Part shown: positions 9,540 to 40,640 of the stretch, one piece after another
How positions within the stretch are numbered: the stretch's first letter is position 1
How the letters are laid out: each line of letters opens with the position of its first letter
NCBI GenBank assembly: GCA_947174415.1
Contig: CAMWIW010000010.1
Span: 1 to 59,471, forward strand
Direction: 5' to 3'
Length of the DNA: 59,471 nt
Origin: an uncultured Clostridia bacterium
Lineage (GTDB): Bacteria; Bacillota; Clostridia; Christensenellales; Borkfalkiaceae
Translations under genes and position numbers: made by a program
Notes under the pieces: model-generated
The model's database searches: none
Seen by the model: only the letters and a program-made list of their open reading frames with translations
What the model was told of the DNA's origin: nothing

Positions 9540-9568
9540 TTGACACTCTCGCTTTTAACTATTATAAT
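9540..9568 (+). promoter_or_regulatory. Promoter of the 31-kb surface/AAA+ operon
   Basis: TTGACA (9540-9545), 17-nt spacer, TATAAT (9563-9568). Predicted start near 9575 and an 84-nt leader that can fold a CACGC/GCGTG stem. No other convincing promoter was seen between here and 40604. Confidence 0.85.
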
Positions 9569-9658
9569 AGTAAAACATTTATTATTTCACACACGCATTG
9601 CGCGGGTATGGCGCGCGTGCTTAGGCGGCAATTTATTTCGGCTAAAATGGAGGCGCAG

Positions 9659-12600
9659 ATGTTGGCGAACGAACGGCTCATCATCAAAATGTCAATCGAG
9701 CAGAAAGTCAAGCTTGTAACCAGCTTGAAATTATACGAAAGTTCTCCCGACGAGAATTACGAATTTCCGGTGTTTAAACTCACCCGCAATCCCTTAGAGG
9801 AAAGTGCGGGCGTTTACGCTACACAGTTCCCGTCGGATAAAGCCCTTGCGTCAAGTTGGAATATGCCGCTCATCTCCGAGGTTTATGCAAAACACGGTGA
9901 AGAGGTTGCCGCCGTCAAAAAGTATTCGTGCTTCAATTTAACGAATTCAAAAGAAAACGAAAACATTTCGGAAGATTATTTCTTAACTTCAAGAACCCTT
10001 TTAAGCAAGCTTAAAGGCCTTTCGCGGTCAAGACAGTTTACGAGCTTCGAAGAATTTGCCGACTGCGACGGGCAGCCTGTAAGAAACTTGCAGGACGTCG
10101 TTTTATCGGGCTCTTCGCCCCGTTCGGTATTCTTGAAGTCCCCGCAAAGCATTGAAAAATATTCTAAGCAGAAAGAGGACGGCAGTCTGTTTTTCGGCGT
10201 GGCAAAGAGCGCGGAAGAGGCGCTCAGATACTTTTTTAACGGCTTCACTCTCGTATTTTTGGAAGAGGATTTTACCGAAAATCTTATAGAACTTTTAAAA
10301 CGTCTTACTGTCGCATACAGAGCGGCTTACGCGGATTACCGTTCGGAAGATATTTCCATAACCGAGCTCGACAGGCGCTGCCAATCGCTTGAAATTTTCG
10401 ACGAGGAAATTTTAAATACCGCCTGCGACAGGCTTATTTCAACCCTTTTGGAAATGCGCAAGCGCGGTCAGGAAACGATACCGGCAGCGTGCGGTATAAA
10501 TACCAACCACGCCGCAGTATTCGACGAGGTTACGGACGACGCGCTTTCGATAACCGCTGCAAGGCAGTCCGCGGTATTACTTAAAAACAGCGGGGTTCTT
10601 CCCCTTTCCAACACCGCAAAGGTTGCCGTGCTCGGCGAGTGCGCAAAGGAATTTTCATATCAAGCCGACTTTTTCAGCGGAAAAGCTACGTCGGAGCGCG
10701 TGCCGTTCTACGCAATAAACAACTACGAAATTAACGCAACGGGCTTCGCGAGCGGTTACGCCAAGGGTGAAAGCGGTCGGCGCGATTTGATAGAAACAGC
10801 CTTAGACCTCGGCAAGGAAGCAGATTTTACGCTTCTGTATTTAAGCGCGGAAAAAGATGCGAAAACCTTACCCGAAGGACAGACGGAGCTTATCGACGAG
10901 CTTTTCAAACACGGCGTAAAAATTATAGCCGTCGTTGCGTCCGACGGCGTTATCGACTGCGCATTTGCGGAAAAGTGTGCTGCCGTGCTTTTGACTTATC
11001 GCGGCGGACAGAGCGCTACGCGAGCCGTTCTCGATATTTTAAAGGGGCTTGCAACCCCGTCGGGAAGACTTGCCGACGCAATTCCCGTTGACGTTGAAAA
11101 AGAAATTAACTTCGTTACAGCACCCCGCAGCGAAGTGCGTTATCCTTTCGGGTACGGGCTGTCCTATACGCAATTCGAGTATTCGAACCTTAAAATCAAC
11201 GAGCGCGGTATAAGCTGCACCGTAAAGAACACGGGTAATTTTGACGGCTTTGCCGTTCCGCAGTTCTATCTTAAAAAGGCAAACTCGCAAGGCATTTTCA
11301 AGGATAAAATTCTTCGCGGCTTTGCAAAAGTATACGTAAAAAAGAAGGACGCCGTCCGCGTTGAAATACCCTTTGACGAAAACACGTTCAAGGTGTTCGA
11401 TAGGGAAAAAGGGCTTTACGTAATCGAGGGCGGCGAGTACTCCGTTACCGTTGCCGAAAACTATTACGACGATAAGCTTACGGGCACGGTAACACTTTCG
11501 GAATACGTCTTTAAGGAAAAATATTCGGGCGAGGTAGTCGAAAGCGTTGCAAACGGCGACGGCACGGCTATCAAGTTCGACCCTAACCAAGAACCGCCCG
11601 AAGTGAGAAAAGCTAAAAAACAGCTTTCTTTCGGCTTAAAGCTTTTCGTTGCCATACTGTTATCTCTCTATTACGAAGGCATTATGGCGGTGCTTGCTTT
11701 CACCGATATAGTTTCGGGCAAGGATATAATTTTTTACAGCGTAATAGGCGTGCTTGCCGCCGTCTGTCTCGTACTGTTTATAACGTACGTTGCAATTATC
11801 GCAAGAAAGCGGAAAAAACAGCATTACGTTCCCGTCAACGACGTTTTGACCGACCTTGTAGAAAACGTCAAAGAGTTTGACGAAATCGCAAAAGTTACGT
11901 ACGCAGAGCCTTTGGCTAATGAGCCCAAAGAGGAAGAACCCGAATTCGATACGGAAGAGGTTCAGGCGGAAAAGACGTACGACGTATCGGTCGGTGAAGA
12001 CCTCGAAGAGGTAGACCTGACCGAGCAAATCACGTTAAACGAAATCTGCAACAACTTCCAATCTTACGCCCAAAGCCGCGGCGTTGTTGTGGACGTAACG
12101 TCCGTAAGGGCGTTGTTTGCCGCAATTTCGGCAAGCAAGATAGTTATAGTTACCACCAAAAACACCGACGTTATGCCCGACTTTTTGGCGGCGCTAAACG
12201 GCTATTTCAACGGCCGCGAGCTGACGGTTACTGGCAGTGAATGGAACGCGCTTTCAGACGCTTTATGGAAACAACAGGGCGAAAAATTCGTTCTGTCCGA
12301 CTTTGCAAACGCGGTTTACTCGGCTACGAAATCCGCCGATAAGCTTTGCGGCGTTGCAATCGGTGAGATAACCGACAACATAAACAAGTGGTTCGCGCCC
12401 TTTATTAAGTACGCCAACCACCCCACGGAAGAGCATATTCTCACCTTGAACGAAGAGCTTTCTTTCCGACTTCCCGACAACTTCCGCTATATCCTTTCCC
12501 CCGCGGAAGGGTGCGATAAATTCTCCCGCGACGTTGCGGACGCGTCTTTACAGCTTGATTTGGTTTTAAGCAGGTGCGACGCAGGCGACGCGGTCGAGCC

Positions 12601-12964
12601 CGTCAATATTTCTGTTAACGCGCTTTGCGACCTCGTAAAAGAGGCAAGGGAAAACTACTATCTTTCCGAAAAGTTTTGGAAGAAGCTTGACGAGCTTTTC
12701 GAAACCGTGCGCGCAACCGATAAAATCCGCTTGGGCAATAAGAATACTTTGCAGCTTGAAAAGTTCTCGTCCGTAATTTTGGAGTGCGGTGGAGACGAGG
12801 CGGAGTGCGTAACGGATATTTTCCTTGCGAAAATAGTTCCCGTTTTGAAACTTACCAAAACCTACTCGCAAGACGGCGGAGAAAAGACTTTATTCGGCAT
12901 AATCGAAAAACTGTTTAACGAGGAAGAGCTTACTAAAATTCAAAGGGCACTTTCAAAGGCGTAA
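9659..12964 (+). CDS. GH3-like pseudoenzyme fused to two membrane helices and a degenerate McrB-like AAA+ domain
   Basis: 1,101 residues from the ATG at 9659, which has GGAGG 5 nt upstream; an in-frame ATG at 9608 lacks a site. Residues 10 to about 630 follow the plan of glycoside hydrolase family 3: an opening like SLEEKISLLTG (here SIEQKVKLVTS), ATQFPSDKALASSWN, AARQSAVLLKNSGVLPLS, and an Fn3-like end starting YPFGYGLSYTQF. The usual SDW nucleophile region is not recognisable, so activity is doubtful. Two hydrophobic helices (about 660-682 and 692-714) follow, so both flanks lie on one side, presumably the cytoplasm. Residues from about 785 align with the neighbouring AAA+ proteins (ITLNEICNNF; RLPDNFRYIL), but the Walker A site is replaced by TTKNTDVMP and Walker B by AIGEIT. 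First gene of the operon. Confidence 0.75.
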   Translation: MLANERLIIKMSIEQKVKLVTSLKLYESSPDENYEFPVFKLTRNPLEESAGVYATQFPSDKALASSWNMPLISEVYAKHGEEVAAVKKYSCFNLTNSKENENISEDYFLTSRTLLSKLKGLSRSRQFTSFEEFADCDGQPVRNLQDVVLSGSSPRSVFLKSPQSIEKYSKQKEDGSLFFGVAKSAEEALRYFFNGFTLVFLEEDFTENLIELLKRLTVAYRAAYADYRSEDISITELDRRCQSLEIFDEEILNTACDRLISTLLEMRKRGQETIPAACGINTNHAAVFDEVTDDALSITAARQSAVLLKNSGVLPLSNTAKVAVLGECAKEFSYQADFFSGKATSERVPFYAINNYEINATGFASGYAKGESGRRDLIETALDLGKEADFTLLYLSAEKDAKTLPEGQTELIDELFKHGVKIIAVVASDGVIDCAFAEKCAAVLLTYRGGQSATRAVLDILKGLATPSGRLADAIPVDVEKEINFVTAPRSEVRYPFGYGLSYTQFEYSNLKINERGISCTVKNTGNFDGFAVPQFYLKKANSQGIFKDKILRGFAKVYVKKKDAVRVEIPFDENTFKVFDREKGLYVIEGGEYSVTVAENYYDDKLTGTVTLSEYVFKEKYSGEVVESVANGDGTAIKFDPNQEPPEVRKAKKQLSFGLKLFVAILLSLYYEGIMAVLAFTDIVSGKDIIFYSVIGVLAAVCLVLFITYVAIIARKRKKQHYVPVNDVLTDLVENVKEFDEIAKVTYAEPLANEPKEEEPEFDTEEVQAEKTYDVSVGEDLEEVDLTEQITLNEICNNFQSYAQSRGVVVDVTSVRALFAAISASKIVIVTTKNTDVMPDFLAALNGYFNGRELTVTGSEWNALSDALWKQQGEKFVLSDFANAVYSATKSADKLCGVAIGEITDNINKWFAPFIKYANHPTEEHILTLNEELSFRLPDNFRYILSPAEGCDKFSRDVADASLQLDLVLSRCDAGDAVEPVNISVNALCDLVKEARENYYLSEKFWKKLDELFETVRATDKIRLGNKNTLQLEKFSSVILECGGDEAECVTDIFLAKIVPVLKLTKTYSQDGGEKTLFGIIEKLFNEEELTKIQRALSKA

Positions 12965-12984
12965 CCCGAAAGGAGAAAAAAATT

Positions 12985-14445: not shown

Positions 14446-14448
14446 TTT

Positions 14449-16299
14449 ATGACACTTTTAGATATTTACTATCGCGCATTCAAGGGCTATCGCAAGCAGA
14501 CGGCGGACAACACCGGCTGCGAAAAGGACAGACGCGCCATTGCGGAAGCCAACGTTGATGAGGATAGGTTACAGTCAACTAAATATCTGTGCAAAATCGA
14601 AGAAGATTGGATAAAAGCCATAGAGGAAGGACTGACTTTCGTTGAAAAGGCTGTTGCCGAAGAGCGGCAGTTCATTAGAACGAACGGCGAAGTAGTGCCT
14701 ATCGAAAAGGTCAGAAAGATTTCCAAGGACTCTGTCGAGCATCTTGCCAAGCACAGCGATATGATAACGCACGTTCCCGAAGAAGAGGACGATTTGCTCG
14801 TGCCCGACAAGCTGTATATGGTCGAAAAGCTTTCGGACTACGCCGTTTACGAAAACCGTTTCCTCTATATGATGCTTAGCTACGTAAAGGCGTTTATAGA
14901 ATACAGGCTCGAAAAGATTGAAAATCTCCGCCGCAAGTACGTCGGCGATATGTCGATTTCGAAGGACATTGTTACTAAAAAACGCACTTTAAGGATAAAA
15001 GCCTCGGTCTATGAAGAACGGACGGATAACCCGTTCCCCATTCCCGACGAAAATTCGAACAAGCTTGTTCAGAGAATTAAGGACTGTCAAAGCATAATAA
15101 ACGCGCTTTTAAACACGGATTTGATGTTGCAGGTTGCGAAATCTCCTATGATTAAGCCGCCTATAGTCAAGACCAACGTTTTAAAGATGAACAACAACTT
15201 CAAGCACGCCTTGGCGCTTTACGACTATATCGCGTCCTACAAGGGGCAAGGGTTTGACTATGAAGAAGTAGTATTCAACTTCGCGCCTTTCACAGACAAG
15301 ATTGCCGACGAAATCGCGGAGGCGGCAAACCTCACTTCCTTTATTGCTTACAAGGTCGGTAACGACATAGAGAGTATTCTCGAAATGGAGTACGAGGCTG
15401 AGGAAAGACGGCTTAAAGAGGAAGAGGAAAAAAAGACGCTTCAACGCTTGAAACGGTTAAAAAAGCGGGCTTTGGAATCCAACAAAACGATGGAAGAATA
15501 TATGCTTTTGTTGGAAGAACGAAACCGTCAGCTCGAAAAGGACGGTGAAGAGCTTGTAAGCCTCCGTCAGGAAGTCGTTGCTTTAAACGAAAAGATTGAC
15601 GGTATTAACCGCGAAAAGGAAGAGCTGAACAGACAGGTAACTCTTTTGACCGAAACTTTGGAAGAGAAAGAGCGGGAAATCGTAGAGCTCAACCAAAAAT
15701 ACATAGAGGATATGGCGGCTGTAAAAGCCGAACACGTTCAGGAAATTGCAGAGCTGAACGAGGCGCACGACGGCGAAATTACCGAGCTTAAAGCGCAGTT
15801 CGCCGACGAGCTTGCTCAAAAAATAGAAGAACACGAAACGCGCGTATCCGAACTCACCGACCAGATAGACGGGTTAAACGAGCAGCTTCGGCAAACCGTT
15901 GCGGAGTTCGAAGAAAAGGGCAAAGAGCTTGACAGACAGTTAAACGATTTAGACGCCGCAAAACAGCGTGTCGTTGACGAATGTCAGGCAAAAATCAAGG
16001 AAGTCGAAGAGGGCTTTAAAAAGGACGTCGAAAAGCTCGAAAGGACGCAGCGCATAGAATTGAAGAAGGCGCGGGACGAAAACGCGCTTATCCGCGGCGA
16101 GCTTGACGGTATCCGCGCACAGCAGGGCAAGCTTACGCCCAGCATCGACTACACCTCGCGCGACAGATTTATCGAACTCGAAGAAGAGTATATGGCTTAC
16201 CACAGATTTTTCAAGTCGCAGTGGGAATTCACTAAAAAAGAAATCAGAAAAACAATTCTTTGGACGAAACAGGAAAAGAAAGACAAAAAGCGCAGTTAA
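14449..16299 (+). CDS. DUF2357-like (McrC-type) protein with long coiled coil and no nuclease domain
   Basis: 616 residues. The first 330 are globular and include YAVYENRFLYMMLSYVKAF, which resembles the DUF2357 region found at the N-terminus of McrC-like partners of McrB ATPases. Residues about 340-590 are a long heptad-rich coiled coil (LEERNRQLEKDGEELVSLRQ and onward). McrC proteins normally end in a PD-(D/E)XK nuclease; none is visible here. No membrane segment or signal peptide is present. It starts 3 nt after one McrB-like gene and ends 9 nt before the other, so it is probably their activator or adaptor. The DUF2357 relation is a motif-level impression and needs a profile search. The coiled coil could tether filaments, DNA or the membrane proteins. 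Confidence 0.65.
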   Translation: MTLLDIYYRAFKGYRKQTADNTGCEKDRRAIAEANVDEDRLQSTKYLCKIEEDWIKAIEEGLTFVEKAVAEERQFIRTNGEVVPIEKVRKISKDSVEHLAKHSDMITHVPEEEDDLLVPDKLYMVEKLSDYAVYENRFLYMMLSYVKAFIEYRLEKIENLRRKYVGDMSISKDIVTKKRTLRIKASVYEERTDNPFPIPDENSNKLVQRIKDCQSIINALLNTDLMLQVAKSPMIKPPIVKTNVLKMNNNFKHALALYDYIASYKGQGFDYEEVVFNFAPFTDKIADEIAEAANLTSFIAYKVGNDIESILEMEYEAEERRLKEEEEKKTLQRLKRLKKRALESNKTMEEYMLLLEERNRQLEKDGEELVSLRQEVVALNEKIDGINREKEELNRQVTLLTETLEEKEREIVELNQKYIEDMAAVKAEHVQEIAELNEAHDGEITELKAQFADELAQKIEEHETRVSELTDQIDGLNEQLRQTVAEFEEKGKELDRQLNDLDAAKQRVVDECQAKIKEVEEGFKKDVEKLERTQRIELKKARDENALIRGELDGIRAQQGKLTPSIDYTSRDRFIELEEEYMAYHRFFKSQWEFTKKEIRKTILWTKQEKKDKKRS

Positions 16300-16308
16300 G
16301 GGTTATTT

Positions 16309-17805: not shown

Positions 17806-17844
17806 ATAATTTACAACGATTTCTCCCTTGAATTGGAGTTGAAT

Positions 17845-20088
17845 ATGTCTAAATTCAGAAACTTGATTTTAATAACAGGATTACTTCTTATCGCCGTGGC
17901 GGCTGCGCTTTTGACGGTGCTTATTCTCTATGCAACGGGAACGATTAAAACCGACCCTATTGAGCTCGTTTATTCGGTTGCAAGCGCCGAAAAAGATTAC
18001 GACGGCACGCCCTTGACCGTGGAAGATTACACCCTCGACAGCGGCAAACTTCTCGAAGGACATACCGCAAGCGTACAGGTAATAGGCGCTCAGACGGACG
18101 TCGGTTCGAGCGAAAGTACCCTGCAAGTTAAAATCTGCGATAAAAACGGCTTTGACGTTTCGGACGAATACGCCGTAAAAGTCAACGCGGGCACGCTCAC
18201 GGTAGACCCGAAAAACATCTCCGTCGTTATTCCAGATTCAACCGTTATATACAGCGGTAAAGAAGTATACTTCAACGACTTTGAAATTATTGACGGCGAG
18301 CTTGCGAAAGGGCATAAGCTTGCGGGATTAAACACGACGCTTTTGAACGCAGGCGACACCCTTCCCAACGACATAGAACCGTTGGTTTACGACCCATTCG
18401 ATAACCCCGTAACCGAAAACTATAACATCACGTTCGAGATGGGCACGGTAAAAGTTCTTGCCCGCACCATAACCGTAAAACCCAAGGATATAACCAAAAT
18501 ATACGACGGTATTACCCTGACGGCAACCGAGTTTGAAATTTCCGACGGCTCTCTCGTTGCCGGACAGACCGCAAGAGCCAAGATTGTAAGCGAGGCGGGC
18601 TTTGCGGCAAGCGCAGTTAACTGCGTTTACGAACAGCGTATTTTAATCGACGAATTGAGCTTTGAAATTTATGCCGACGACGGCGTAACGCCCGTAAGTC
18701 AAAATTACAACATCTATTTCGACACGGCGTTTATGACCATTCAGCAGCGCCCCCTAAAAATAACCACTTTATCCGAAACGTTCACTTACGACGGCGAGGA
18801 GCACTATAACGACGCGTATATAGACGAAGGCGATTACGCACCCAATCAGATATTAAACGTTAAAAGCTTCCCTAAGGTTTGCGACGTAACGGACGGCGAG
18901 GGTACTAAAAACGAGATAAGATTTGAAATTCTATCGGGCGAAAACGACGTCATAAGCAACTATTCCGTACAGTACGTATACGGCACGCTTAAAGTCGCGC
19001 CCTTTGAGATAACCGTTCAAACTAACTCTTACGAAAAGGTTTACGACGGTAACGAGCTCGGTAACTACATTATAGCGCAGGGCAATACCTACACGACCGT
19101 TCCCGAGCTTCCAAGAAAGTTTAATTTAACGGCTTCGATTTCCACCGAAGTATCTTCACAGGTCAACGTCAACAGCGGCACGTTTTCCCTTATTAACGTC
19201 AGTATTCAAATGAACGGGACTGACTGCACGGGCAATTTCACGGTAGACGTAAAGGAAGGAGCGTACGCAATAACTCCCAAACCCTTTACGGTAACGCTTA
19301 ATGACTTAAAAAATACGAACAAATTTATCTACGGCGAAACTTTCGTTATAGAAAGCGACGAGGCGTTCGGCGAAGCTTTTATAGATACGGACTTTACCTA
19401 TAACGATTTCCAAATCATTCAGCCCCAAGATTTAACGGCGGGCGTTCACAGCTATTCTGCAAAATGTATAAAAGCGGACTTAACCAATTACGAACTGAAA
19501 ATTATCGACGGCAGCGTTACGATAGAGAAGAGAAAGGTCGATTTGGTTTTAAGCTCGAAAGCTCCCCAAGCGTTCAGTATGACTTATAACGGTCTTAACA
19601 GCTTCTACGACGTCAAAACCGATTACCTTGCAATAAAAGACGAGACCGATTACGCTATATCTTCGGCAGAGTTTAATAATATTTTCAACGTTGCGGGCAA
19701 AACGCAAAACATAACCGTTAAGAGCGTTGAAGTTTCTTCGAAAGGCGAGGATATAACGTCTAACCTCGAAATAAATTACGCGGGCGTAAATATAAGGGTA
19801 ACCGTAACTCCCCGACTTATTTCATTTACTTATAAGCCGTACAATTACGTCGGCTATTGGGAAGGCGCTAACCCCGATTACAGCGTTCTTGCGGGACTTG
19901 TGGACGTATCCGCAGGTACTCCGTTAGCAAACGGCGACGCTATCGTGGAAACCGAAGTTTCGGTAATTAACGAAGATTGGTACGTCGTCAGTTCCGTTTC
20001 CGTGGTTTGCGGCGGCGTGGACGTATCCGGACTGTACGAAATAAACGAAGATTATTACGGTCAGGTAATAATTCCCGCTCAACCGTAA
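17845..20088 (+). CDS. MBG-type beta-repeat surface protein with N-terminal membrane anchor
   Basis: 747 residues from the ATG at 17845 (GGAG 6 nt upstream; an in-frame TTG at 17833 is less likely). Residues 6-31 are a hydrophobic signal-anchor. The rest is a tandem array of about eight beta-rich units of 75-100 residues. Units open near K-x-YDGT and close with GTL-x-V-x-PK-x-I-x-V, as in MBG (mostly beta grooved) repeats of bacterial adhesins. No LPXTG motif, S-layer domain or C-terminal anchor is seen, so the N-terminal helix likely holds it with the repeats outside. It lies 39 nt after the second AAA+ gene and is a shorter relative of the giant protein that follows. Confidence 0.8.
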   Translation: MSKFRNLILITGLLLIAVAAALLTVLILYATGTIKTDPIELVYSVASAEKDYDGTPLTVEDYTLDSGKLLEGHTASVQVIGAQTDVGSSESTLQVKICDKNGFDVSDEYAVKVNAGTLTVDPKNISVVIPDSTVIYSGKEVYFNDFEIIDGELAKGHKLAGLNTTLLNAGDTLPNDIEPLVYDPFDNPVTENYNITFEMGTVKVLARTITVKPKDITKIYDGITLTATEFEISDGSLVAGQTARAKIVSEAGFAASAVNCVYEQRILIDELSFEIYADDGVTPVSQNYNIYFDTAFMTIQQRPLKITTLSETFTYDGEEHYNDAYIDEGDYAPNQILNVKSFPKVCDVTDGEGTKNEIRFEILSGENDVISNYSVQYVYGTLKVAPFEITVQTNSYEKVYDGNELGNYIIAQGNTYTTVPELPRKFNLTASISTEVSSQVNVNSGTFSLINVSIQMNGTDCTGNFTVDVKEGAYAITPKPFTVTLNDLKNTNKFIYGETFVIESDEAFGEAFIDTDFTYNDFQIIQPQDLTAGVHSYSAKCIKADLTNYELKIIDGSVTIEKRKVDLVLSSKAPQAFSMTYNGLNSFYDVKTDYLAIKDETDYAISSAEFNNIFNVAGKTQNITVKSVEVSSKGEDITSNLEINYAGVNIRVTVTPRLISFTYKPYNYVGYWEGANPDYSVLAGLVDVSAGTPLANGDAIVETEVSVINEDWYVVSSVSVVCGGVDVSGLYEINEDYYGQVIIPAQP

Positions 20089-20161
20089 CCCCCCGTTATT
20101 TAAAGCATATATAGGCACTAATTAAAAATTTTAAGGCAAAACAGACGGATTTGTAAAGCGT

Positions 20162-31573: not shown

Positions 31574-31606
31574 GCTGAATTCAGCTTTATTCGGAGGTTA
31601 ATCAAT

Positions 31607-33169
31607 ATGAACCGCGGTTTCGGTTTCTATTTCGGGCACGCAATGAGGTCGTCTGTAACGACTCTTTGGCATAAGGGCAATTTATTGAAATATTTTGCTT
31701 GGGTAATAATGGAGCTAATAGCGTCTGTAACTTTCGTTCTTCCCGCAATGTTTTCGCTCGCCAACGTAAGGCAGGCAAAAATAGCGCAGAGGGAGAATAC
31801 GGTTGACGTGCCTCAATCTTTCAAGGTTGCGTGCCGTGCTAAACCGTTCTGGACTATGTTTTTAGCGGTAGTTCTCGAAGCGCTTATATTTATTGCGGGG
31901 CTTATGCTGATAGGCGTTGCAAGCGCGCTTTTGGGCGCTGTCGGCTACGTAATCGCGCTGTTCGTGAGCACGGTCGAGCCTTTGATTATTATCTTGATTT
32001 TCCTTGCTCCAGGCGCGCTTGTTTCGTTGGTGTATTGCATAATTATGCCGATACTTCTCGCGCCCACGGCGTACGTAATCGAAACAAATCCCGAAATAGG
32101 CGCGGCTGACGCAATTTCCATCTGTTTCAATACAATGAAAAGCCGCGGCAAGTTCACTTGCTTTTTAAACGTGTTTATTCCCGCGCTCGTCGAATGTGCA
32201 ATCATAGGCTTGTGCGCGGCAATAGAATTAGTTTTGGCGATTTTCATAACCGATATACGGCTCGGCGTTGTGCTCGGAATTTTAGTCGCATTGATATTCT
32301 TCGTAGCGTTCGTGCTTATTGCGCCTATGTTCGCGCTTGCAAGAAAAATCGCAAACCAAAGTCTTTTCGAGGATATAGTGTTAGACCCCGTCAATGCGTC
32401 CAAACGCACGAGCGGCGTCAATATCAGAAAGTGCAAGGGCGTCAAGTTCGACCCCGCCGAGTACGAAAACGAGCTGTCCCTTTTATTCGACGAAACCTAC
32501 GGCGACAGAGTGCCTATGCCCGAAAGTCCCTCGGCGCAAAGAAAGCGCGAGCGTGAGGAAAGGCAAGCGGCAAAGGCGAGAAATGCGGTTTTATCAGAGC
32601 CTTTGCGCGCAGTGCCCGCATACGTTCCTCCCGAAACGGCTTCATCGGGTGAAGAGGAGGACGGCGAGCTTTTGACGGTAAGCGACCTTATCCGCGACGT
32701 CGAAACGGCTGACGGCGAAAACAAAGAGCAGCCTGCAACGCCAGCGGAAGTTCCCGCCGAAGAACCCGCAGCTCCTGAGGAGAAAGCGGAAGAGCCTGTA
32801 AAAGCGGAAGAGCCTGCGCAGCCCGAACCCGAGGCAAAGACGGAAGAGCCCGTAAAAGAAGAGCCTGTACCTGAGGCGGAAGAACCCAAAACCGAAGAAC
32901 CCGTAAAGGAAGAGCCCGCCCCCAAGGCGGAAGAGCCCGCAGCTCCCGAGGAGAAAGAGGAAGAGCCCGCTCCTAAGGCGGCTGCAAAGACTACGGTCAA
33001 GGTAACGACAAAGGTTGCGGCAAAGCCCGCGGCGACCAAGACGACTACAACCGTCAAGGCAAAGACGGCGGAAAAGTCCGCCGCATCGACTACGGCAGCG
33101 AAGACGACCGTAAAAGCAAAACCCAAAACTACGGCTGCAAAAAAGCCCGCGGACGGCGATAAAGAGTAA
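31607..33169 (+). CDS. Polytopic membrane protein with acidic EEP repeats and a histone H1-like tail
   Basis: 520 residues with GGAGG before the start. Residues 1-245 contain about five or six membrane helices and resemble DUF975-type proteins (VIETNPEIGAADAISICFNTMKSRGK). A cytoplasmic region (245-350) includes a highly charged RKREREERQAAKAR stretch. Residues about 355-455 are an irregular repeat of EEP, KAEEP and KTEEPVKEEP units. The final 65 residues are Lys/Ala/Thr-rich (KTTVKVTTKVAAKPAATK), like the tails of bacterial histone H1-like proteins, and could bind nucleic acid or acidic polymer. The gene is within the 31-kb operon, 33 nt after the giant protein. I cannot assign a function. 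Confidence 0.7.
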   Translation: MNRGFGFYFGHAMRSSVTTLWHKGNLLKYFAWVIMELIASVTFVLPAMFSLANVRQAKIAQRENTVDVPQSFKVACRAKPFWTMFLAVVLEALIFIAGLMLIGVASALLGAVGYVIALFVSTVEPLIIILIFLAPGALVSLVYCIIMPILLAPTAYVIETNPEIGAADAISICFNTMKSRGKFTCFLNVFIPALVECAIIGLCAAIELVLAIFITDIRLGVVLGILVALIFFVAFVLIAPMFALARKIANQSLFEDIVLDPVNASKRTSGVNIRKCKGVKFDPAEYENELSLLFDETYGDRVPMPESPSAQRKREREERQAAKARNAVLSEPLRAVPAYVPPETASSGEEEDGELLTVSDLIRDVETADGENKEQPATPAEVPAEEPAAPEEKAEEPVKAEEPAQPEPEAKTEEPVKEEPVPEAEEPKTEEPVKEEPAPKAEEPAAPEEKEEEPAPKAAAKTTVKVTTKVAAKPAATKTTTTVKAKTAEKSAASTTAAKTTVKAKPKTTAAKKPADGDKE

Positions 33170-33202
33170 TTTTTACACCGGCTTGTAATCAAGAGGACAG
33201 TT

Positions 33203-33916
33203 ATGACAATGCATGTATGGAGAATTTTAAGTGCCGTATCCGTCGGCGTGTTTATTCTCGGTTTAATATTATTGCTGGCTTTAAGGCTACTTAAAAACGG
33301 CTATTACCACGAATATACACAGGACGAACTTTTAAAGAAGGTTAAAGCGGCAAACTCCAAAAATTCGATTTATTTCACTTCGGGTGAAACCAAAAATTTC
33401 ATTAAAAAATACGTTATCTGCAAAACGCTGTACGATAAATATTTGGTATGCAACTATACTAAAAGCTTTGAAGATATTTCTTACTTCGTCGTGCAATATT
33501 CCCGTTTGAAAAGGGTAATAGGCGTAATAAACGTAACCCACCGCGATACGGGCGACAGCTCTAAGGTTATCGCGCTTAAAAAGGGCTGCGCTTCGGTTAA
33601 CGTAGTTATCGGCACTGCCGACGGAATAACCGTCAACTCCAACGTTATCCGTCCCCTGCCTATGAGCAAGGTCCGTATCCACGCCGCCTTAAAAAGCTTG
33701 GTGCTGTTCACCTTTTTATTCGCCGTGCGCCACGCCGCGGTAGAGCTTTTCAGCGGTGTCTACACCCTGCAATTTTTGGATAACTTTTTAAATTACGGCA
33801 TCATAGCCGCAAGTTTCGTCCTCGCGCTTTTAAGCTATCTTATAACCGCGCTCTGTTTCAGAAGAAGAAACGCAAAAATAAGAAACGGAGGTGCGCTTGA
33901 ATATGAGTTCCTATAA
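33203..33916 (+). CDS. Membrane protein of unknown function
   Basis: 237 residues with one N-terminal helix (about 8-29), a soluble beta-rich middle (30-160) and two C-terminal helices (about 163-185 and 195-220). By the positive-inside rule, the short basic C-terminus (RRRNAKIRNGG) is cytoplasmic. An AGAGGA element precedes the ATG. It overlaps the following leucine-rich-repeat gene by 14 nt, so their expression is coupled and the proteins may act together. No family was recognised. All its neighbours in the operon are also membrane-linked. Confidence 0.7.
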   Translation: MTMHVWRILSAVSVGVFILGLILLLALRLLKNGYYHEYTQDELLKKVKAANSKNSIYFTSGETKNFIKKYVICKTLYDKYLVCNYTKSFEDISYFVVQYSRLKRVIGVINVTHRDTGDSSKVIALKKGCASVNVVIGTADGITVNSNVIRPLPMSKVRIHAALKSLVLFTFLFAVRHAAVELFSGVYTLQFLDNFLNYGIIAASFVLALLSYLITALCFRRRNAKIRNGGALEYEFL

Positions 33917-35951
33917 TAATATAGAAAAAATCAAGTACGCCTCGGCTGACTGCGTCGTTACTTTGCGCGAATACATAGTGTTCGAGGACGAACGCGCCGA
34001 AGAAAAGTTCGTCGTATTCAAGTTCTCTAACAACGTAAGCCAACAGCTTCTCGGTATGGAGTTTGAGGTAAGCCAATACGATATCGACGGAAACTTGGTT
34101 GAAAAGTCTGTAGTTATCTACAACAAATTCCTTGCAAAGCCCGACCAACCTTTCGTTCCCAACGCGAAGTTGAAAGTAAACTATCTTTGCAAGACCTTAT
34201 CCGTAAGGCTCGTGCAAGCGGCTTTCGACAGGTTTATATGGAAAGAGGGCAAGTACCTCGACAACAGCTACAAGTTCGAGCATTACGCCCGCGACGAGGA
34301 TACGGAAGCGGCTAAGTACGCCGCGCCCGTAAAACAGGTTAAGGTTAAAGAACCTAAGCCCGACCCCGCACCGAAAAGGCGCAAGGGCAAGCTTCCTTTT
34401 ACCGCCAAAAATTCGATGCGCAAAAACATCGCAAGGTTTCCGGGCGTATTCAACTTCTTCGTATGTATTCTTATCTTCGTTGCAATAGGTCTTTCAATCT
34501 ATTTCTTCAACGACAGGTCAACTTCGTTTACTCTCGATAATTACGATTTAAAAATTCTCGACGCCAACACCAACACCGTTACCGTAACGGGTTACGAGGG
34601 GGACGGAAAAAACATAACAATTCCCGCGACCATAGGCGAGTATACCGTTGTAAGAATTAGCGGCGACGCCTTCAAAAATTCGGAGATTACAAGCGTAAAA
34701 TTCAATTCGCCTTCGCTCTATATCGAAAGCTCGGCGTTCGAGGGCTGTAAGAGCCTTAAAACGGTTTCTTCTTCGGGCGAAATAACCGTTACGGGTTACG
34801 CCTTTAAGGACTGTACACGACTTGAAAGCATTACCCTTCCCAATTCGATACTGTTTACAAACAGCCTTGCAAACTGCACCAAGGTGTCGTATCTGGAATT
34901 CGGCAAGACCAGCGCGGTAACTTTATCCGCTCTTTTCGGCGGGAACGCTCCCGCAACCGTGCCCGTAATCATAACCAACGAGGATAATCTTCCTTACGGC
35001 TTTTTCGAAGACGGAGGTTCAACGGGATTTATCTACGACGCAAACAAAACTTACGCTTACGGCGAGCTTTACGGCAAGGGCGTTGCGGGTTATACCCGTT
35101 ATAACGATTTCGAAACGGTTGACGGGATTATTATTACGGTAAATCCCGCCGCGTCTGAAGACCTCGTCATTTCGAACGAGGTAAAAGGGATAAGCGAAAA
35201 GGTTATTTCTGATTTGTACCGTTTCAGATCTCTCAAAGTGGAGGGCGAAACGGTTATAACACCCGACATTGCCGTAGGATTTGCAAACGTAACCTCGATT
35301 GACGTTGCAAACGAGATAAGCGTACAGTACAGTTTATCTTATTTCGGAAACGCCCGTTATCTGTCGTTGCCGTGCTATAAGGAAGCGCCTTTAAATCACC
35401 AATACGATTTTAGCGCCGGCAGTTATTACGTTCAGATTACGCTTAAACCGACGGACGGTTGTAAGACTGTTCCGAGTGCGGCGTTCTCGGGCGTATACGT
35501 CTCAACGATAGTAATAGAAGCAGGCTTTACGGATTGCGGAAGTAATATAGTAAGTTACGACAGTTTCTTGACAAGTATCACTCTTCCGAAGGGCATAACT
35601 TACGGATATTACAACACCGTTATAGGCGACGGCTGTACTAATCTTGAAACCGTGGACGTGTATTTGGATAATTTCAATAGTTACGAATATTTTAACCGCT
35701 CTTACAAATATACGAAAACGCTGATTATAAGAACCGAATATTTATCAGGTTACAACTATTTACAAAACTCTTATTATTATATTGACTGTCTTGAAATCCA
35801 CGCAACGGCTTATTCGATTAATTTGCGCGATTTCATAAGTTATGACGACTTCTACGTTTACGTAAATACTTTGAAAATATATATTGAAAATCTATACGAT
35901 ACCACCGCGTTTTTGAGCGGAGTAGGGTACGGTACACTGTATCTTAATTGA
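33903..35951 (+). CDS. BspA-type leucine-rich-repeat protein with cytoplasmic domain and one membrane helix
   Basis: 682 residues from the ATG at 33903 (GGAGG about 10 nt upstream; a GTG four codons earlier is possible). Residues 1-160 form a soluble domain (FKFSNNVSQQLLGMEFEV, VIYNKFLAKPDQPF). A basic, Pro-rich linker leads to a membrane helix at about 184-203. Outside lies a BspA-like LRR_5 array (ITIPATIGEYTVVRISGDAF, AFKDCTRLESITLP). The array becomes irregular after about residue 350, and the last 150 residues are Tyr- and Asn-rich. BspA repeats usually mediate adhesion. A single protein with a conserved inner domain and outer repeats could link the cytoplasmic AAA+ machinery to the surface; that link is inference. 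Confidence 0.8.
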   Translation: MSSYNNIEKIKYASADCVVTLREYIVFEDERAEEKFVVFKFSNNVSQQLLGMEFEVSQYDIDGNLVEKSVVIYNKFLAKPDQPFVPNAKLKVNYLCKTLSVRLVQAAFDRFIWKEGKYLDNSYKFEHYARDEDTEAAKYAAPVKQVKVKEPKPDPAPKRRKGKLPFTAKNSMRKNIARFPGVFNFFVCILIFVAIGLSIYFFNDRSTSFTLDNYDLKILDANTNTVTVTGYEGDGKNITIPATIGEYTVVRISGDAFKNSEITSVKFNSPSLYIESSAFEGCKSLKTVSSSGEITVTGYAFKDCTRLESITLPNSILFTNSLANCTKVSYLEFGKTSAVTLSALFGGNAPATVPVIITNEDNLPYGFFEDGGSTGFIYDANKTYAYGELYGKGVAGYTRYNDFETVDGIIITVNPAASEDLVISNEVKGISEKVISDLYRFRSLKVEGETVITPDIAVGFANVTSIDVANEISVQYSLSYFGNARYLSLPCYKEAPLNHQYDFSAGSYYVQITLKPTDGCKTVPSAAFSGVYVSTIVIEAGFTDCGSNIVSYDSFLTSITLPKGITYGYYNTVIGDGCTNLETVDVYLDNFNSYEYFNRSYKYTKTLIIRTEYLSGYNYLQNSYYYIDCLEIHATAYSINLRDFISYDDFYVYVNTLKIYIENLYDTTAFLSGVGYGTLYLN

Positions 35952-35988
35952 ATCAGACTTTAAAAAATCTTAAAAGGAGGTGATTGGT

Positions 35989-38900
35989 ATGAATAACGTT
36001 TTAACGGCTTTATGCGGCGCAATGAGCTTTATGCCGCCTTGGATAATGCTGGGCGTTTTCGGTGCAATCATTCTCCTTATAGTTGTCTTTATAGTTTTTA
36101 AAGGTATAAAGCGGGGCGTCAAGTTCATAATTCTCGGGCTTATCTTAATGGCGGCGGCGTATCTTGGGTATCTCGTGTATCAAATCGCGTGTTGGGAGCT
36201 TTCAGAGATTATTGCCTTTGCGATAGCCTATGGACCTACGGTTCTGTTCGTACTTATCGTAATGACGGCAACCTTCGTCAACGCGAAGAGAGGGCTAAGA
36301 AAGTCCCTCATTCTCGCCCTTCACGCGTTCTGCGCGGGCGCGTTGTGCGTTGCGTTCTTCTTCATTATGGTAAGCGTAAAGGAAGTGGACGAGGGCACGC
36401 TGAACTTTATCAATTTCTTAATTGGCGGCGACGGCGCGCTTCAACGCGCTTTGGGCGTTCCCGAAAGCTGCTCCACCTTAAAGGAAGTGCTTGCCGAATG
36501 TGTTCCCGTACTCGTCGGCGCTGATACGGACGCGGGCATTATTTTAAAGGATAACACCGCGTATATCCTCACCCTCGTGGATATGGCATACCGCCTTATT
36601 TTCGCGGTTATCTCAACGCTGTTCTATTTCTTTATTATCTTCGTTCTCTATATCGTTTATATTCTCTGCTATTCGCAGCGCAAGTACAAAAAGATGAGAA
36701 CGGCGGAGTTCTTAAACGGCAAAACCGACAGAAGCTACCGTAAGCACCACTTAGGCGGCGGCGCGGTCGGGCTCGTCCGCGGAATGGCGGTTGGACTTCT
36801 GTCCCTGTCCTTTATCGGCAGCGCGTTCTTCGCGGTTGCGGGCGGCAAGGGCGAAGGAAAGCTCGAAGACTACGACTTCGGCAACGACGATATAAATTAT
36901 TATTATCAGATTTACCGCTCGATAGAGGGATACGGCTCGCAAGGAATATTCAAAATTTTAAATGCATTGTCCGACGCGACCGACACTCCGTATTATCTGT
37001 TCGCCGCAGATTTGATTTTCTCGGGCGAGCTGAACGACGAAGAATTCGGCGTTTCAGACAATATCAAATTCAGAGAAGAAATAGCCGCGTTCACTGGCTT
37101 TGCAAAGGATACTCTGGACCTTATGATGAAGTACGGTTCAGAGGAGCTTAATGCAATCGTCGGCGGCGAAGTTACCGATAACGCTTTCGATACGGTAGTC
37201 GAGGTTATGACGAGAACGGGCTTTCAGGAAGAGTTCAACGCCCTGATTGACGCGTTCGATTCGCAAACCTATATAATTAACCTTTCGATGTCCTTCATAA
37301 ATTCTGTCGTCCGCAACGTTGACGATATCTCGTTTGCGTCGTCGGCAATAGGCGAGGGCGAAAGGGAGCTTATAAAGCTAATTTTCAAAAAGGGCTTCCT
37401 GACCGAAAATATCCCCGACGAGCGCGACTTAATCGCGACAAGCGGCAAAGAGATAGCGGAGGGGGAGAATATACGTCCCTACCTTACTGTAAACCACATA
37501 CTCAACAAGAGCGATATTAAGACCGTTTTAAACGTCGTGCTTTCAATTCTTGCTGGCGAAGAGACGGGAGATACGTTGCAGCTTGTAAGGCGCGTAATAC
37601 CCGAACTCGGCAAGCTGTCCATTTTGGGCACTGAAAGGAAGTCCGAGCTTAACCCCGTATTCGCGAGAATGTACTGCCTGTTTGAAAACCTATATCTTAC
37701 AGACGACGGCGAGGACGGTGTTTCGTACACCGAGCTTTACGAGGACGGCATAGACTGGATAGGCGAAATCAACACCCTTCTGGACGTTTCCGAGGATACG
37801 GTTACTCTCTACGAAAACGTATACGACGAGAGCGCCGAAGCCCTCGATATAGTCAGAAATCTGTTCGACGACAAAAATGTAAACTACGCAGAAAATATGC
37901 GCATCTACGACAGGCTTTGCTCGTTTTTGACGGACAGCAGGGTTTTGGGTAAAGCCCTTTCAACGAGCTTCGTTTACAGAACGCTGTATTCGGCGCTTAC
38001 GGGCGTGCACGAGGACGTGTATCTGCCGAGGGATTTGAATTTCGGCAACGTTTACGATAAGTACGGCAACGTAGTTTCCTACGGCGAAATATACCAACTG
38101 TTCTACGGCGTAAAGCTTCTTTTCACGGGCGAAAACAAGGACGCCTTCGACACCATATTAAATCTTGCGGACAACTCGCAGATTGACGAGCTTTTGGACG
38201 TTTTGGCGTCGGTAATCAAATCAACGGACGGACGCAACACCCTTGCGGGATACATTACGGAATCCCAAATTCTCCGTTCGGTCATTTCGGTGGAACTTAT
38301 ATCGGCGAGCAAAAACGGTAACACTTTCTACGTTCCGTTAGCCGCTCTCGAAAAAGACGGCGGGGAATACGTAAACTTTATTATCAAGCAGGAATTAAGT
38401 CAGCTAATGGAAAATATGGACGAACTCGTGCGGTTCGTCAAGCCGTTCGAAGGCGACAGCACCGAATGGGAAACCAGCGTTGACGGATTTATAAACGACG
38501 ATAATTTCTATTCATTAGTTAGGACGAACAGAATTTTCGAAGGCACGGTTGCACAGCTTCTCAACCTGAAATTGCAGGATAACCTCTTGACAGTTCCCGC
38601 AGCTATAAAAGACGATATAGACGGCTGGATAACGATAGACGGCAAACAGGGCGAGCTGATAAACCTTATTGACGCGTTGCGCGTTGCTAACTTCCAAGTA
38701 TCCGATATTCTGAACGTCGGTTCTTCTGGGGACGGCAATGGTTCATTCGAAGAAAACGTTTTAAACAGCATAACCGAAATGAGTGAGGAAGAGCTTGAAA
38801 TATTCTTTAATTCGAGCGTTCTGCACTATACCGTATCCGATTATATTCTTTATAAAGACTCAAAAATCGACGGTATCGTTTTAGTCGTGCCTTACATTTC

Positions 38901-40596
38901 CCGTCAGGTTTTAAGCGGCGACGTCATTGCAAGCGTTATCAAAAAGAACGAGTTAATTTCCGTATTAAAGGAAATTTCCGCCCTTAACCTTTCGGAAGAG
39001 GACGGCGTGGACATAATGAAGCTCATTATTAAAATTGCGCGCAATAAGGAAATAATTACGGGCAGTTATATAATTTCGGCTTCGGTCGTAGCTACTATGG
39101 TTGAGGACGAATATATTTCCCAAACCTTGCTTTCCGTCCCCGACGAGCTGTTGGCTATGGGCGTGAAAGCGGAACTCGAATATTACAACTCAAATAATAA
39201 GTGGACGGAAGAGCTTCCCGCGCTTATCGACGCGCTTAAAGAAATTCTCGGCATAAACGAAGAAACGCCCGACGACTACGAAATAACGGAAGAAGAGTTG
39301 GACGGTAAAATTTCCGAACTTCTGACCACTGTTAACGACGCGTCAACGGTTAACCCGTCGCAGTCAAAGCTCAACGTTCTTTACACCTCGTTGGTGTTCC
39401 GTAACAAAATCACGGTAGAAATCGACGGCGCTATATCGGATAAGGATATAGTCGAAAACACCGTTATAAACTACGTTAAAATCGACGGCTATTACAGATA
39501 CGAAGAACTTCAAGCCCTCTGCAACGCGGCTAACGCCCTCGGGATAAAATCCTTTGACGGTTTGGCTGAGTTCGATTTCGAAAGCGTATCCGACTTCAAC
39601 GAAGTTATAAGCGGCACGCAAACCCGTCTTGACGTGGTTTACGAATCGGTCTTGGCGCAGGGCATCATTACCAAATCGGTTAAAAAATCGATAGCAAACT
39701 TCAACGCCGATGCAAGCGCTACTAAAATTTACGACGAACACCCGCTGTCTTACAGAAGAGAGTTGCCCGTCGTATATAACAAGAGCGAAGTGGAAACGCT
39801 TATAAAGCTTTTCGGCTCGCTCAGCGCGGACGAAGTCAATTACGACGAGATAGGCGAATATATTTACGATAACGACGGTGTAACCAAGTCGTATATCCTC
39901 GTAGCGTCGGTATCGAAAGAGCTTTTAAAGAGCAACAAAACGGTAATTCCACGCACGATAACAGAAACTGCCGACGGCGAGCTTTACGTCAAGCCGAGCG
40001 AAATCAGGGCGTTCATTGACGCTTTCAACGCGATAAAGAGAGATTACGGCTACGACGACGTAACGGACATCGAGTGGGACGAAAACACTCCCATAAAAAT
40101 TCCTCAAAGCAGCGTTCGCGGCACGGTGTTCGGAAGCGAAATTCTCCGCGCAACCATAACCTGTCAGCTTGTAAATCTGAGCGTAAAGGAAGGGCAGAAA
40201 CTGTTTGCGGACGAAAGCAACGTAACGAGAATTTTCGACGCGCGACCCGCCGAATACGACGGCAACAAGTACAGGGCAATGCTGAATTCCGCACAGCTCG
40301 AAGCGCTTTCCGTCGCGCTTGAAATAATCAGCGGTTCGGAGGAAGCAGAGTTCGATATTCCGACGATAACGAGCGTACAGCAGGTAATTGACCTTAACGA
40401 TTACCTTGACGAAATTTTCGAGTCGGATATAATGCGTTACAGAATTTGCGAGTTCTTATCCGATAAAATCGATATTTACAGACAAGACGCATACGATATC
40501 ATAACTATGCAAACGCCCGTTTCGGTTTACTCCGCTTCTGCGGCAGAGGTAAGGGCGGCTCTTCAGGAAAGGTACGGATATTTGTTTGAATTTTAA
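35989..40596 (+). CDS. Very large membrane protein with C-terminal helical domain, unknown
   Basis: 1,535 residues from the ATG at 35989, which has an ideal AAAGGAGG site; a GTG at 35980 overlaps that site. The first 310 residues contain about seven membrane helices, with a loose likeness to CvpA-type proteins. The remaining 1,220 residues are mostly helical and acidic, with recurring elements such as LRSVISVELIS, ILRATITCQLV and a leucine-rich spacing that suggests degenerate helical repeats of about 90-110 residues. The frame is intact. It is the last gene of the operon and is followed by a strong terminator. No function or family was recognised; it could be a scaffold or export-related partner of the giant surface protein. 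Confidence 0.75.
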   Translation: MNNVLTALCGAMSFMPPWIMLGVFGAIILLIVVFIVFKGIKRGVKFIILGLILMAAAYLGYLVYQIACWELSEIIAFAIAYGPTVLFVLIVMTATFVNAKRGLRKSLILALHAFCAGALCVAFFFIMVSVKEVDEGTLNFINFLIGGDGALQRALGVPESCSTLKEVLAECVPVLVGADTDAGIILKDNTAYILTLVDMAYRLIFAVISTLFYFFIIFVLYIVYILCYSQRKYKKMRTAEFLNGKTDRSYRKHHLGGGAVGLVRGMAVGLLSLSFIGSAFFAVAGGKGEGKLEDYDFGNDDINYYYQIYRSIEGYGSQGIFKILNALSDATDTPYYLFAADLIFSGELNDEEFGVSDNIKFREEIAAFTGFAKDTLDLMMKYGSEELNAIVGGEVTDNAFDTVVEVMTRTGFQEEFNALIDAFDSQTYIINLSMSFINSVVRNVDDISFASSAIGEGERELIKLIFKKGFLTENIPDERDLIATSGKEIAEGENIRPYLTVNHILNKSDIKTVLNVVLSILAGEETGDTLQLVRRVIPELGKLSILGTERKSELNPVFARMYCLFENLYLTDDGEDGVSYTELYEDGIDWIGEINTLLDVSEDTVTLYENVYDESAEALDIVRNLFDDKNVNYAENMRIYDRLCSFLTDSRVLGKALSTSFVYRTLYSALTGVHEDVYLPRDLNFGNVYDKYGNVVSYGEIYQLFYGVKLLFTGENKDAFDTILNLADNSQIDELLDVLASVIKSTDGRNTLAGYITESQILRSVISVELISASKNGNTFYVPLAALEKDGGEYVNFIIKQELSQLMENMDELVRFVKPFEGDSTEWETSVDGFINDDNFYSLVRTNRIFEGTVAQLLNLKLQDNLLTVPAAIKDDIDGWITIDGKQGELINLIDALRVANFQVSDILNVGSSGDGNGSFEENVLNSITEMSEEELEIFFNSSVLHYTVSDYILYKDSKIDGIVLVVPYISRQVLSGDVIASVIKKNELISVLKEISALNLSEEDGVDIMKLIIKIARNKEIITGSYIISASVVATMVEDEYISQTLLSVPDELLAMGVKAELEYYNSNNKWTEELPALIDALKEILGINEETPDDYEITEEELDGKISELLTTVNDASTVNPSQSKLNVLYTSLVFRNKITVEIDGAISDKDIVENTVINYVKIDGYYRYEELQALCNAANALGIKSFDGLAEFDFESVSDFNEVISGTQTRLDVVYESVLAQGIITKSVKKSIANFNADASATKIYDEHPLSYRRELPVVYNKSEVETLIKLFGSLSADEVNYDEIGEYIYDNDGVTKSYILVASVSKELLKSNKTVIPRTITETADGELYVKPSEIRAFIDAFNAIKRDYGYDDVTDIEWDENTPIKIPQSSVRGTVFGSEILRATITCQLVNLSVKEGQKLFADESNVTRIFDARPAEYDGNKYRAMLNSAQLEALSVALEIISGSEEAEFDIPTITSVQQVIDLNDYLDEIFESDIMRYRICEFLSDKIDIYRQDAYDIITMQTPVSVYSASAAEVRAALQERYGYLFEF

Positions 40597-40603
40597 AAAG
40601 CAA

Positions 40604-40640
40604 AAAATCCCGCCCGCGTTTCAAACGCGGGCGGGATTTT
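40604..40640. terminator. Bidirectional terminator closing the 31-kb operon
   Basis: Long GC-rich stem (AAAATCCCGCCCGCG paired with CGCGGGCGGGATTTT, small loop) flanked by A-rich and T-rich sequence. It serves both the plus-strand operon and the convergent DegV gene. Confidence 0.92.

Follow-up and report, generated by a model that had tools for sequence, protein, structure and literature searches.

Why McrB-like AAA+ ATPases should be encoded in one run of genes with giant repeat proteins of the cell surface is the question raised by this locus, and it is also worth asking whether the run is a unit at all. Within the window, by which we mean the whole 59,471-nucleotide stretch that was analysed, ten co-oriented plus-strand genes occupy positions 9608-40596 in the order P1-AAA-U-P3-AAA-D-MBG-S-MBG-L-P7-P8-P9-P10 (Table 1), with ORF lengths of 1118, 486, 616, 498, 751, 3803, 520, 237, 686 and 1538 aa. 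The gaps at the nine junctions are, in gene order, 20, 3, 9, 27, 73, 33, 33, -26 and 28 nt. A preliminary description of the sequence had placed here ten plus-strand genes with short gaps or overlaps between one consensus promoter and one strong terminator, and all three were found again in their places, the last as a terminator-like stem. The operons of relatives G480 and G008 have the same promoter followed by AGTAAAACA, and the promoter core common to these two and the window is TTGACA-17-TATAATAGTAAAACA. A scan for internal sites over two stretches that together hold all nine gene junctions found 11 terminator-like sites in 12900-20300 against 10.5 expected and 12 in 31500-36100 against 7.2 expected, none of them with more than 10 pairs. 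One promoter-like site with 11 of 12 matches lies inside P10 at 40406-40433. Membrane segments of all proteins were located using a simple hydropathy scan, and topology is therefore predicted throughout.

Table 1. Operon features and their positions in the window, with the evidence for each; membrane helices and topology are predicted.
Feature	Positions	Strand	Basis
Promoter, TTGACA-17 nt-TATAAT	9540..9568	+	perfect sigma-70, 12/12 consensus matches; conserved upstream of the operon in G480 and G008
P1: degenerate GH3 (weak N-terminal part; GH3_C and Fn3-like domains), membrane hairpin of two helices, AAA+ without Walker A	9608..12964	+	Pfam, PDB, hydropathy, AAA profile
AAA-U: McrB-like AAA+ NTPase, one N-terminal membrane helix	12985..14445	+	AAA_5 1.6e-7 (Pfam); family profile against PDB
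Direct repeat copy 1, homogenised motor segment	13311..14417	+	4 mismatches in 1107 nt against copy 2
P3: McrC-like DUF2357-family N-terminal domain and long coiled coil, no nuclease recognised	14449..16299	+	DUF2357 in relatives; family alignment
AAA-D: McrB-like AAA+ NTPase, two N-terminal membrane helices	16309..17805	+	Pfam, hydropathy
Direct repeat copy 2, homogenised motor segment	16671..17777	+	4 mismatches in 1107 nt against copy 1
MBG-S: single-helix membrane protein, MBG/YDG-like repeats; likelier start ATG 17845	17833..20088	+	8 repeat matches, 5 below E 0.01 (window-built profile)
MBG-L: 3803-aa membrane protein, MBG/YDG-like repeats, short cytoplasmic N-tail (predicted)	20162..31573	+	35 repeat matches, 28 below E 0.01 (window-built profile)
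P7: membrane protein, weak DUF975 similarity	31607..33169	+	DUF975 2.6e-6, below Pfam cut-off; after MBG-L in relatives
P8: membrane protein, three predicted helices	33203..33916	+	hydropathy; 17 proteins across the locus set, counting duplicates
P9: cytoplasmic domain, one helix, BspA-type LRR outside (predicted); likelier start ATG 33903	33891..35951	+	LRR_5 9.2e-18
P10: N-terminal membrane helices and soluble part of ~1200 aa; likelier start ATG 35989	35980..40596	+	no Pfam match; hydropathy
Intrinsic terminator	40604..40640	+	17-bp stem, 10 G-C pairs

The two McrB-like ATPases with membrane anchors that had been proposed are confirmed as AAA_5/McrB-like, with their anchors predicted by hydropathy, and the ATPase family profile returned only McrB entries from the PDB at E 0.001. 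What had been overlooked is the near-identity of the two motors. In the window, about 1.1 kb of motor DNA is nearly the same in AAA-U and AAA-D (3 mismatches in 1073 nt by another repeat rule than that of Table 1) and the anchors differ. The motors are at least 97% identical in 25 of the 44 loci that have both ATPases, 70-90% identical in 2 and below 70% in 17, and in 27 of the 44 no AAA-U from elsewhere is as close as the copy alongside. Anchors are 34-53% identical in the 11 loci, out of 23, that allowed the measurement, and the DNA of both motors is alike over more than 300 nt in 22 loci, at 95.8-100% identity. We attribute the identity of motor DNA within a locus to gene conversion between nearby copies, and selection for one shared ring would explain its persistence, though the 17 loci with diverged motors indicate that two identical copies are not required everywhere. 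The near-identical motor repeat probably also accounts for the contig breaks seen at the operon. Walker B and N-x-D-D are kept in 159 of 159 active ATPases of this clade and its sister clade (below), Walker A being the selection criterion. Because this string fits NxxD as well, and E. coli McrB aligns to it without a gap, the deletion behind the NxD type is putative. The PADLOC candidate family PDC-M26A matches both ATPases (3.3e-44 and 7.1e-46).

P3 was described earlier as a DUF2357-like coiled-coil protein, an assignment that holds through its relatives but not by a match of its own: DUF2357 was matched in 8 of the 13 P3 family members scanned (best 8e-9) and, in Pfam, not by window P3, in which PADLOC and NCBIfam gave coiled-coil type matches. 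On this kinship we take P3 to be a member of the DUF2357 family. A single match to a solved structure, at E 0.49, was taken as chance.

The dead AAA+ domain of the preliminary description is present at the C-terminus of P1, where it has no Walker A and is found by the AAA profile at E 8e-26, but the GH3_C and Fn3-like domains of the same protein had been missed. P1 runs from GH3_C (2.3e-25, residues 323-520) through an Fn3-like domain (8.4e-11, residues 550-617) and two predicted membrane helices to the AAA+ domain. Against the PDB it matches GH3 enzymes (best 1.2e-33), one of which is also weakly matched by its N-terminal part. Pfam did not recognise the catalytic GH3 N domain PF00933 in window P1; it was found in 4 of 24 P1 family members (best 2.9e-5), all 24 of which have GH3_C. 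The hydropathy scan gave no N-terminal helix for the GH3-like half; its expected place is the cytoplasm, and a surface role leaves this unaccounted for. The GH3 part is dispensable in some lineages, as L164 and L170, both from Anaeroplasmataceae bins, carry a dead AAA+ protein without it. An AAA-like subunit selected for lacking Walker A lies upstream in 44 loci; active and dead ATPases were split by presence of the Walker A pattern, and 23 of the 44 dead ones are unaligned at those columns.

For the two proposed MBG-repeat proteins, YDG, MBG and MBG_2 are matched in homologous relatives but not in the window pair, in which Pfam found no MBG when both were scanned whole. Among 23 family proteins or pieces, a set that includes P0005 (no match) and a piece of P0006, YDG was found in 7, MBG in 5 and MBG_2 in 3; AgI/II C2 domain matches occur in 12 and a transglutaminase domain in 6 (best 2.5e-22). 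The transglutaminase motif had 27 matches in 106 MBG proteins of relatives and is absent from the window's own MBG proteins. These transglutaminase, AgI/II C2 and YDG domains of relatives are surface features. In 49 of 55 loci with MBG genes, one MBG protein begins with a tail of M, up to 8 residues and Y-x-x-Y-x-x-[KRS]-[LMIV], a pattern written after the sequences had been seen. The MBG-L tail is no better conserved than the first ectodomain (mean pairwise identity of 32.0% against 34.7%), with 25.3% for the membrane helix and 26-28% for later repeats. No MBG protein matched a solved structure at 0.01. Transglutaminase-like domains embedded in MBG proteins were seen in G009, G482, G485, L167, L173, L210, L218, L220 and L233, among others.

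Beyond the MBG genes, the LRR_5 match in P9 bears out the BspA-type LRR protein that had been proposed. The P9 N-terminal domain occurs in 24 proteins of the locus set, duplicates included, and gave just two single weak Pfam matches, above 0.03; PADLOC PDC-M42C also weakly matches P9 (0.0014). P10 was found in 17 of 93 genus genomes, the window's included, and adjoins P9 in seven relatives' stretches. The order P7 to P10 is also kept in G481, G486 and G455, whereas G479 (P7 unrecognised), G453 (P8 uncalled) and G008 (split over contigs) show it in part. All ten genes are kept in the same order on one contig in G480. In other lineages, P8- and P9-like genes lie upstream of P1.

Whether the ATPase block and the surface block belong together was judged from P3 loci. 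A P3 gene of any type was found in 41 of 93 genus, 100 of 396 order and 15 of 398 phylum genomes, the phylum-level matches apart from the window's genome being weak and in frames of 662-926 aa. The 134 loci with a P3 gene reduce to 123 distinct ones at 97% identity, drawn from a locus set for which MBG was not a collection criterion, selection was partly manual and named loci lean to the window's lineage. With relatives' genes called using a simple in-house caller, MBG genes lie downstream together with a second ATPase in 49 of the 123 and, with no second ATPase called, in 6 more; in another 8 a second ATPase is present but no MBG gene was recognised (three end there and five have further genes called). 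A further 50 carry SipW-like genes, by a profile started from 8 seeds picked by pattern, 10 have neither, and MBG and SipW-like genes occur together in none of the 123. MBG-type genes are thus downstream in 55 of 123 P3 loci, including 49 of the 57 with a second ATPase downstream, and loci with MBG genes come from bins named Clostridia, Lachnospiraceae, Oscillospiraceae, Anaeroplasma and Bacilli.

The converse count agrees. MBG matches were obtained in 34 genus genomes, and by our own typing a type-1 DUF2357-like gene is present in 21 of these. Of the remaining 13, which would be counter-examples at face value, 12 run out at a contig edge within or immediately ahead of the MBG genes, and in seven of the 12 the very edge holds an ATPase piece. 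These 12 are probably assembly breaks at the repeat; the exception is G448, which is contiguous without P3. Independent and rarely joint occurrence of the two blocks had been named as what would speak against the preliminary description; the neighbourhoods instead show conserved linkage, which comes out in its favour. In L244 (G448 C12, 4759-17501 in the locus), P1, an ATPase and two MBG genes are contiguous without P3 and a second ATPase; the gap is either an assembly collapse or a true deletion between identical repeats. Parts or all of the operon core were also seen in L164, L165, L166, L170 and L193, from bins Anaeroplasma, Anaeroplasmataceae and Acholeplasmatales, groups that lack a cell wall, and P7 follows MBG-L in L164 and L165.

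In the window, the operon lies between a convergent pair of genes, LMWPc (8946-9431) and DegV (40655-41593). We scored 48 genus genomes in which the two are convergent on one contig: the spacing is at most 500 bp in 32 and 501-2500 bp in 11, and reaches 31.2 kb in the window and 32.6 kb in G480, so the block is gained or lost here in one piece. In G464, G469 and G500 the spacing is 54-75 kb. The LMWPc/DegV site is present without the operon in fourteen genomes whose operon is confirmed by P3 (own typing; five such sites were read), and the operon therefore lies elsewhere in them. Eight of the ten flanking genes scanned have housekeeping-type families, e.g., LMWPc, DegV, tRNA synthetase and ApbE. 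A phage origin was rejected, as the two phage records found are 33.7% and 30.1% identical (best E 3e-54, with 67% of the query covered), and none of 64 pattern matches on viral contigs was confirmed by tblastn. So was a plasmid origin, with all 266 plasmid records below 60% identity and short of 80% query coverage; 161 of these records, which hold distant McrB-like relatives, are from Klebsiella.

The 50 loci with SipW-like genes lead to the closest described system. In a FastTree phylogeny of the ATPases, all 57 AAA-D and 49 AAA-U (106) form a type-1 clade with 0.99 support, plus two unassigned sequences, and all 47 of the SipW group form another with 0.998 support, again plus two unassigned. 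None of the 63 type-1 loci matches the SipW-like profile, compared with 50 loci on the other side. Two-helix neighbours in two loci of the SipW clade match SipW NF046067 at 9.6e-10, 2e-18 and 2.8e-12, below the curated cut-off, and one of three checked SipW-like proteins passes the cut-off of signal peptidase I TIGR02228 (NCBIfam). Exported proteins with a SipW-type signal occur in 36 of 50 loci of the clade by a loose pattern, and 43 of 86 listed one-helix neighbours carry a TxAWF consensus when aligned. TasA homology of these exported proteins is not supported, as Pfam found no TasA family in the 43 and just the SipW-type signal is seen. Four loci of the group, G637_C6 (L132), G791_C10 (L136), G654_C11 (L137) and G730_C20 (L148), also encode, close to the ATPase, giants of 2241-3684 aa that begin with a helix.

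As far as its published account goes, the SipW clade fits the CoCoPALM systems, which are given one paragraph in the 2024 CoCoNuT paper with a fuller treatment promised elsewhere (PMC11090510); among the papers listed for the term, that paper and its preprint are the only ones on CoCoPALM. The paragraph defines them by signal-peptidase partners, and describes an NxD-type McrB GTPase motif, mostly followed by E/D, and fusion of the GTPase to an FtsB-like transmembrane/coiled-coil region (PMC11090510). The window operon resembles this outline in its McrB-like NTPases with N-terminal membrane segments, its DUF2357/McrC-like coiled-coil partner, the N-x-D-D motif and its extracytoplasmic partners, and the predicted N-terminal helices of its ATPases can be set beside the FtsB-like fusion by description alone. 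However, in the loci that fit CoCoPALM a single NTPase was called next to P3. The window lineage has two and a dead third, MBG giants and no SipW-like gene, and no signal-peptidase family was matched among the window's ten genes (Pfam; NCBIfam on nine). With no signal peptidase, three AAA+ paralogues and MBG proteins that look membrane-anchored, we file the window lineage beside CoCoPALM and not as a member. The earlier statement that no such system had been described therefore needs correcting for the sister clade, which fits a published system, but stands for the window's own clade, which we found in no paper; no open-licence PMC paper was found that describes a McrB and MBG combination by its title or the start of its abstract.

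Other known systems are more distant. The operon shares with McrBC type IV restriction a neighbouring pair of McrB AAA+ and DUF2357-family domains, but differs in having membrane anchors and surface partners and no recognised nuclease or DNA-binding domain. The nuclease had been reported as missing, and indeed no PD-(D/E)xK or other nuclease family was matched in the ten proteins (Pfam on all ten; PADLOC and NCBIfam on nine) or in the ten flanking genes scanned; on this result a restriction system was rejected as the family assignment. The same result separates the operon from the CoCoNuTs, which it resembles in the N-x-D-type McrB motif, coiled coils and McrC-like partner: those without an active McrC nuclease are stated always to have another nuclease nearby (PMC11090510). 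Likeness to TapA-SipW-TasA fibres is limited to the SipW clade, with its SipW-like peptidases and SipW-type signals; the window has no SipW or TasA match. PcdA of S. aureus is a precedent for a McrB-family NTPase co-opted away from restriction, being described as a division-plane factor that binds FtsZ and DivIVA in cell division, though a DUF2357 partner and surface giants are absent from that description (PMC10602043).

From gene content and kinship we cautiously favour a reading in which the product of the operon is a mixed NTPase of McrBC descent, anchored in the membrane, and a surface fibre is what it assembles, exports or drives. AAA-U and AAA-D, with the same motor on different anchors, would join the dead P1 in a mixed ring at the inner face of the membrane, with P3 as its activator or stalk. 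NTP hydrolysis would power the ring in assembling, exporting, pulling or releasing the giant MBG proteins, which would be anchored in the membrane and reach outward as repeat chains; a candidate handle for the ring is the cytoplasmic N-tail of MBG-L. P8, P9 with its LRR, and P10 may be membrane partners. The gene set, its conservation as a unit, the McrB and DUF2357 kinship, the lack of a nuclease match, the coupled MBG genes and the homogenised motors are features of the sequences themselves; the topology, ring composition, action on surface proteins and surface function are what we infer from them. Assembly or adhesion is likelier than motility as the surface function, and the function first proposed for the operon, in building, moving or exporting a surface apparatus, is plausible. 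Patchy presence, such as that of P3 in the genus, is as in defence or adhesion genes and counts against the surface-machine reading, as do the cytoplasmic place expected for the GH3-like half of P1, the conservation of the MBG-L tail at no more than ectodomain level, the missing transglutaminase motif in the window, the loci with diverged motors and the 8 loci in which a second ATPase goes with no recognised MBG gene.

The main rival is a membrane-bound sensor of phage or other intruders, in which MBG or LRR ectodomains or the GH3-like domain would sense attack and a McrBC-type ring would respond in the cytoplasm without cutting DNA. Restriction is the best-known role of the McrB and DUF2357 families (PMC11090510), PADLOC candidate families match both ATPases (PDC-M26A) and, weakly, P9 (PDC-M42C), and the block is patchy in its presence and inserted as a unit at one site. 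We nevertheless consider this unlikely given that no nuclease or other toxic effector family was matched in the ten proteins, the flanking families are housekeeping, the sister clade is tied to signal peptidases and no relative was confirmed on viral contigs. Another possibility is a device that works on contact between cells, in adhesion, cross-linking or antagonism, with the AAA+ ring timing the display of an MBG/transglutaminase arm. It would agree with the transglutaminase domains and AgI/II C2 matches of relatives' MBG proteins; it is improbable for the operon at hand, whose own MBG proteins lack the transglutaminase motif and whose ten proteins matched no immunity or toxin family.

Still less probable is a gliding or surface-crawling motor, with the cytoplasmic NTPase moving long MBG legs via their N-tails. 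Giant membrane-anchored repeat proteins are indeed coupled to a cytoplasmic NTPase, also in Anaeroplasma bins, and the MBG-L tail pattern would suit such a motor, but the likeness to leg proteins of known gliders is one of analogy only and AAA+ rings typically thread or remodel their substrates and do not drive legs. It is highly improbable that these are unrelated neighbouring operons sharing a direction by chance, a reading refuted for the core. The position of P8 and P9 upstream of P1 in other lineages and the promoter-like site inside P10 would allow it, yet the whole order is kept in G480, MBG genes follow P3 in 55 loci, the promoter upstream of the operon is conserved and the block is inserted as a unit between LMWPc and DegV.

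The favoured surface-fibre reading, if true, would give the McrB/McrC motor, so far associated with the cutting of foreign nucleic acid, a large cell-surface branch in gut bacteria, and the uncharacterised CoCoPALM branch would gain a sister lineage with clear partners. More tentatively, and as a possibility somewhat short of even, the operon may represent an undescribed class of surface machine, in which a hetero-oligomeric membrane McrBC-type ring would mechanically handle giant repeat fibres from inside the cell, with a gene-converted pair of active paralogues and a dead paralogue fused to a pseudo-glycosidase, in gut Clostridia and wall-less Anaeroplasma. A natural test of mixed AAA+ rings is offered by two motor genes that evolve in concert in one operon, and a cultured carrier of the operon exists in Anaerocaecibacter muris.

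Two further arrangements were seen among the relatives. In G016 (C5, 9725-27228), a same-strand run of large membrane proteins, one of 2211 aa, continues beyond the MBG genes. L216 and L217 have neither an MBG nor a SipW-like gene and carry beside P3 a 1115-aa ATPase-domain protein with predicted helices near residues 4 and 721.
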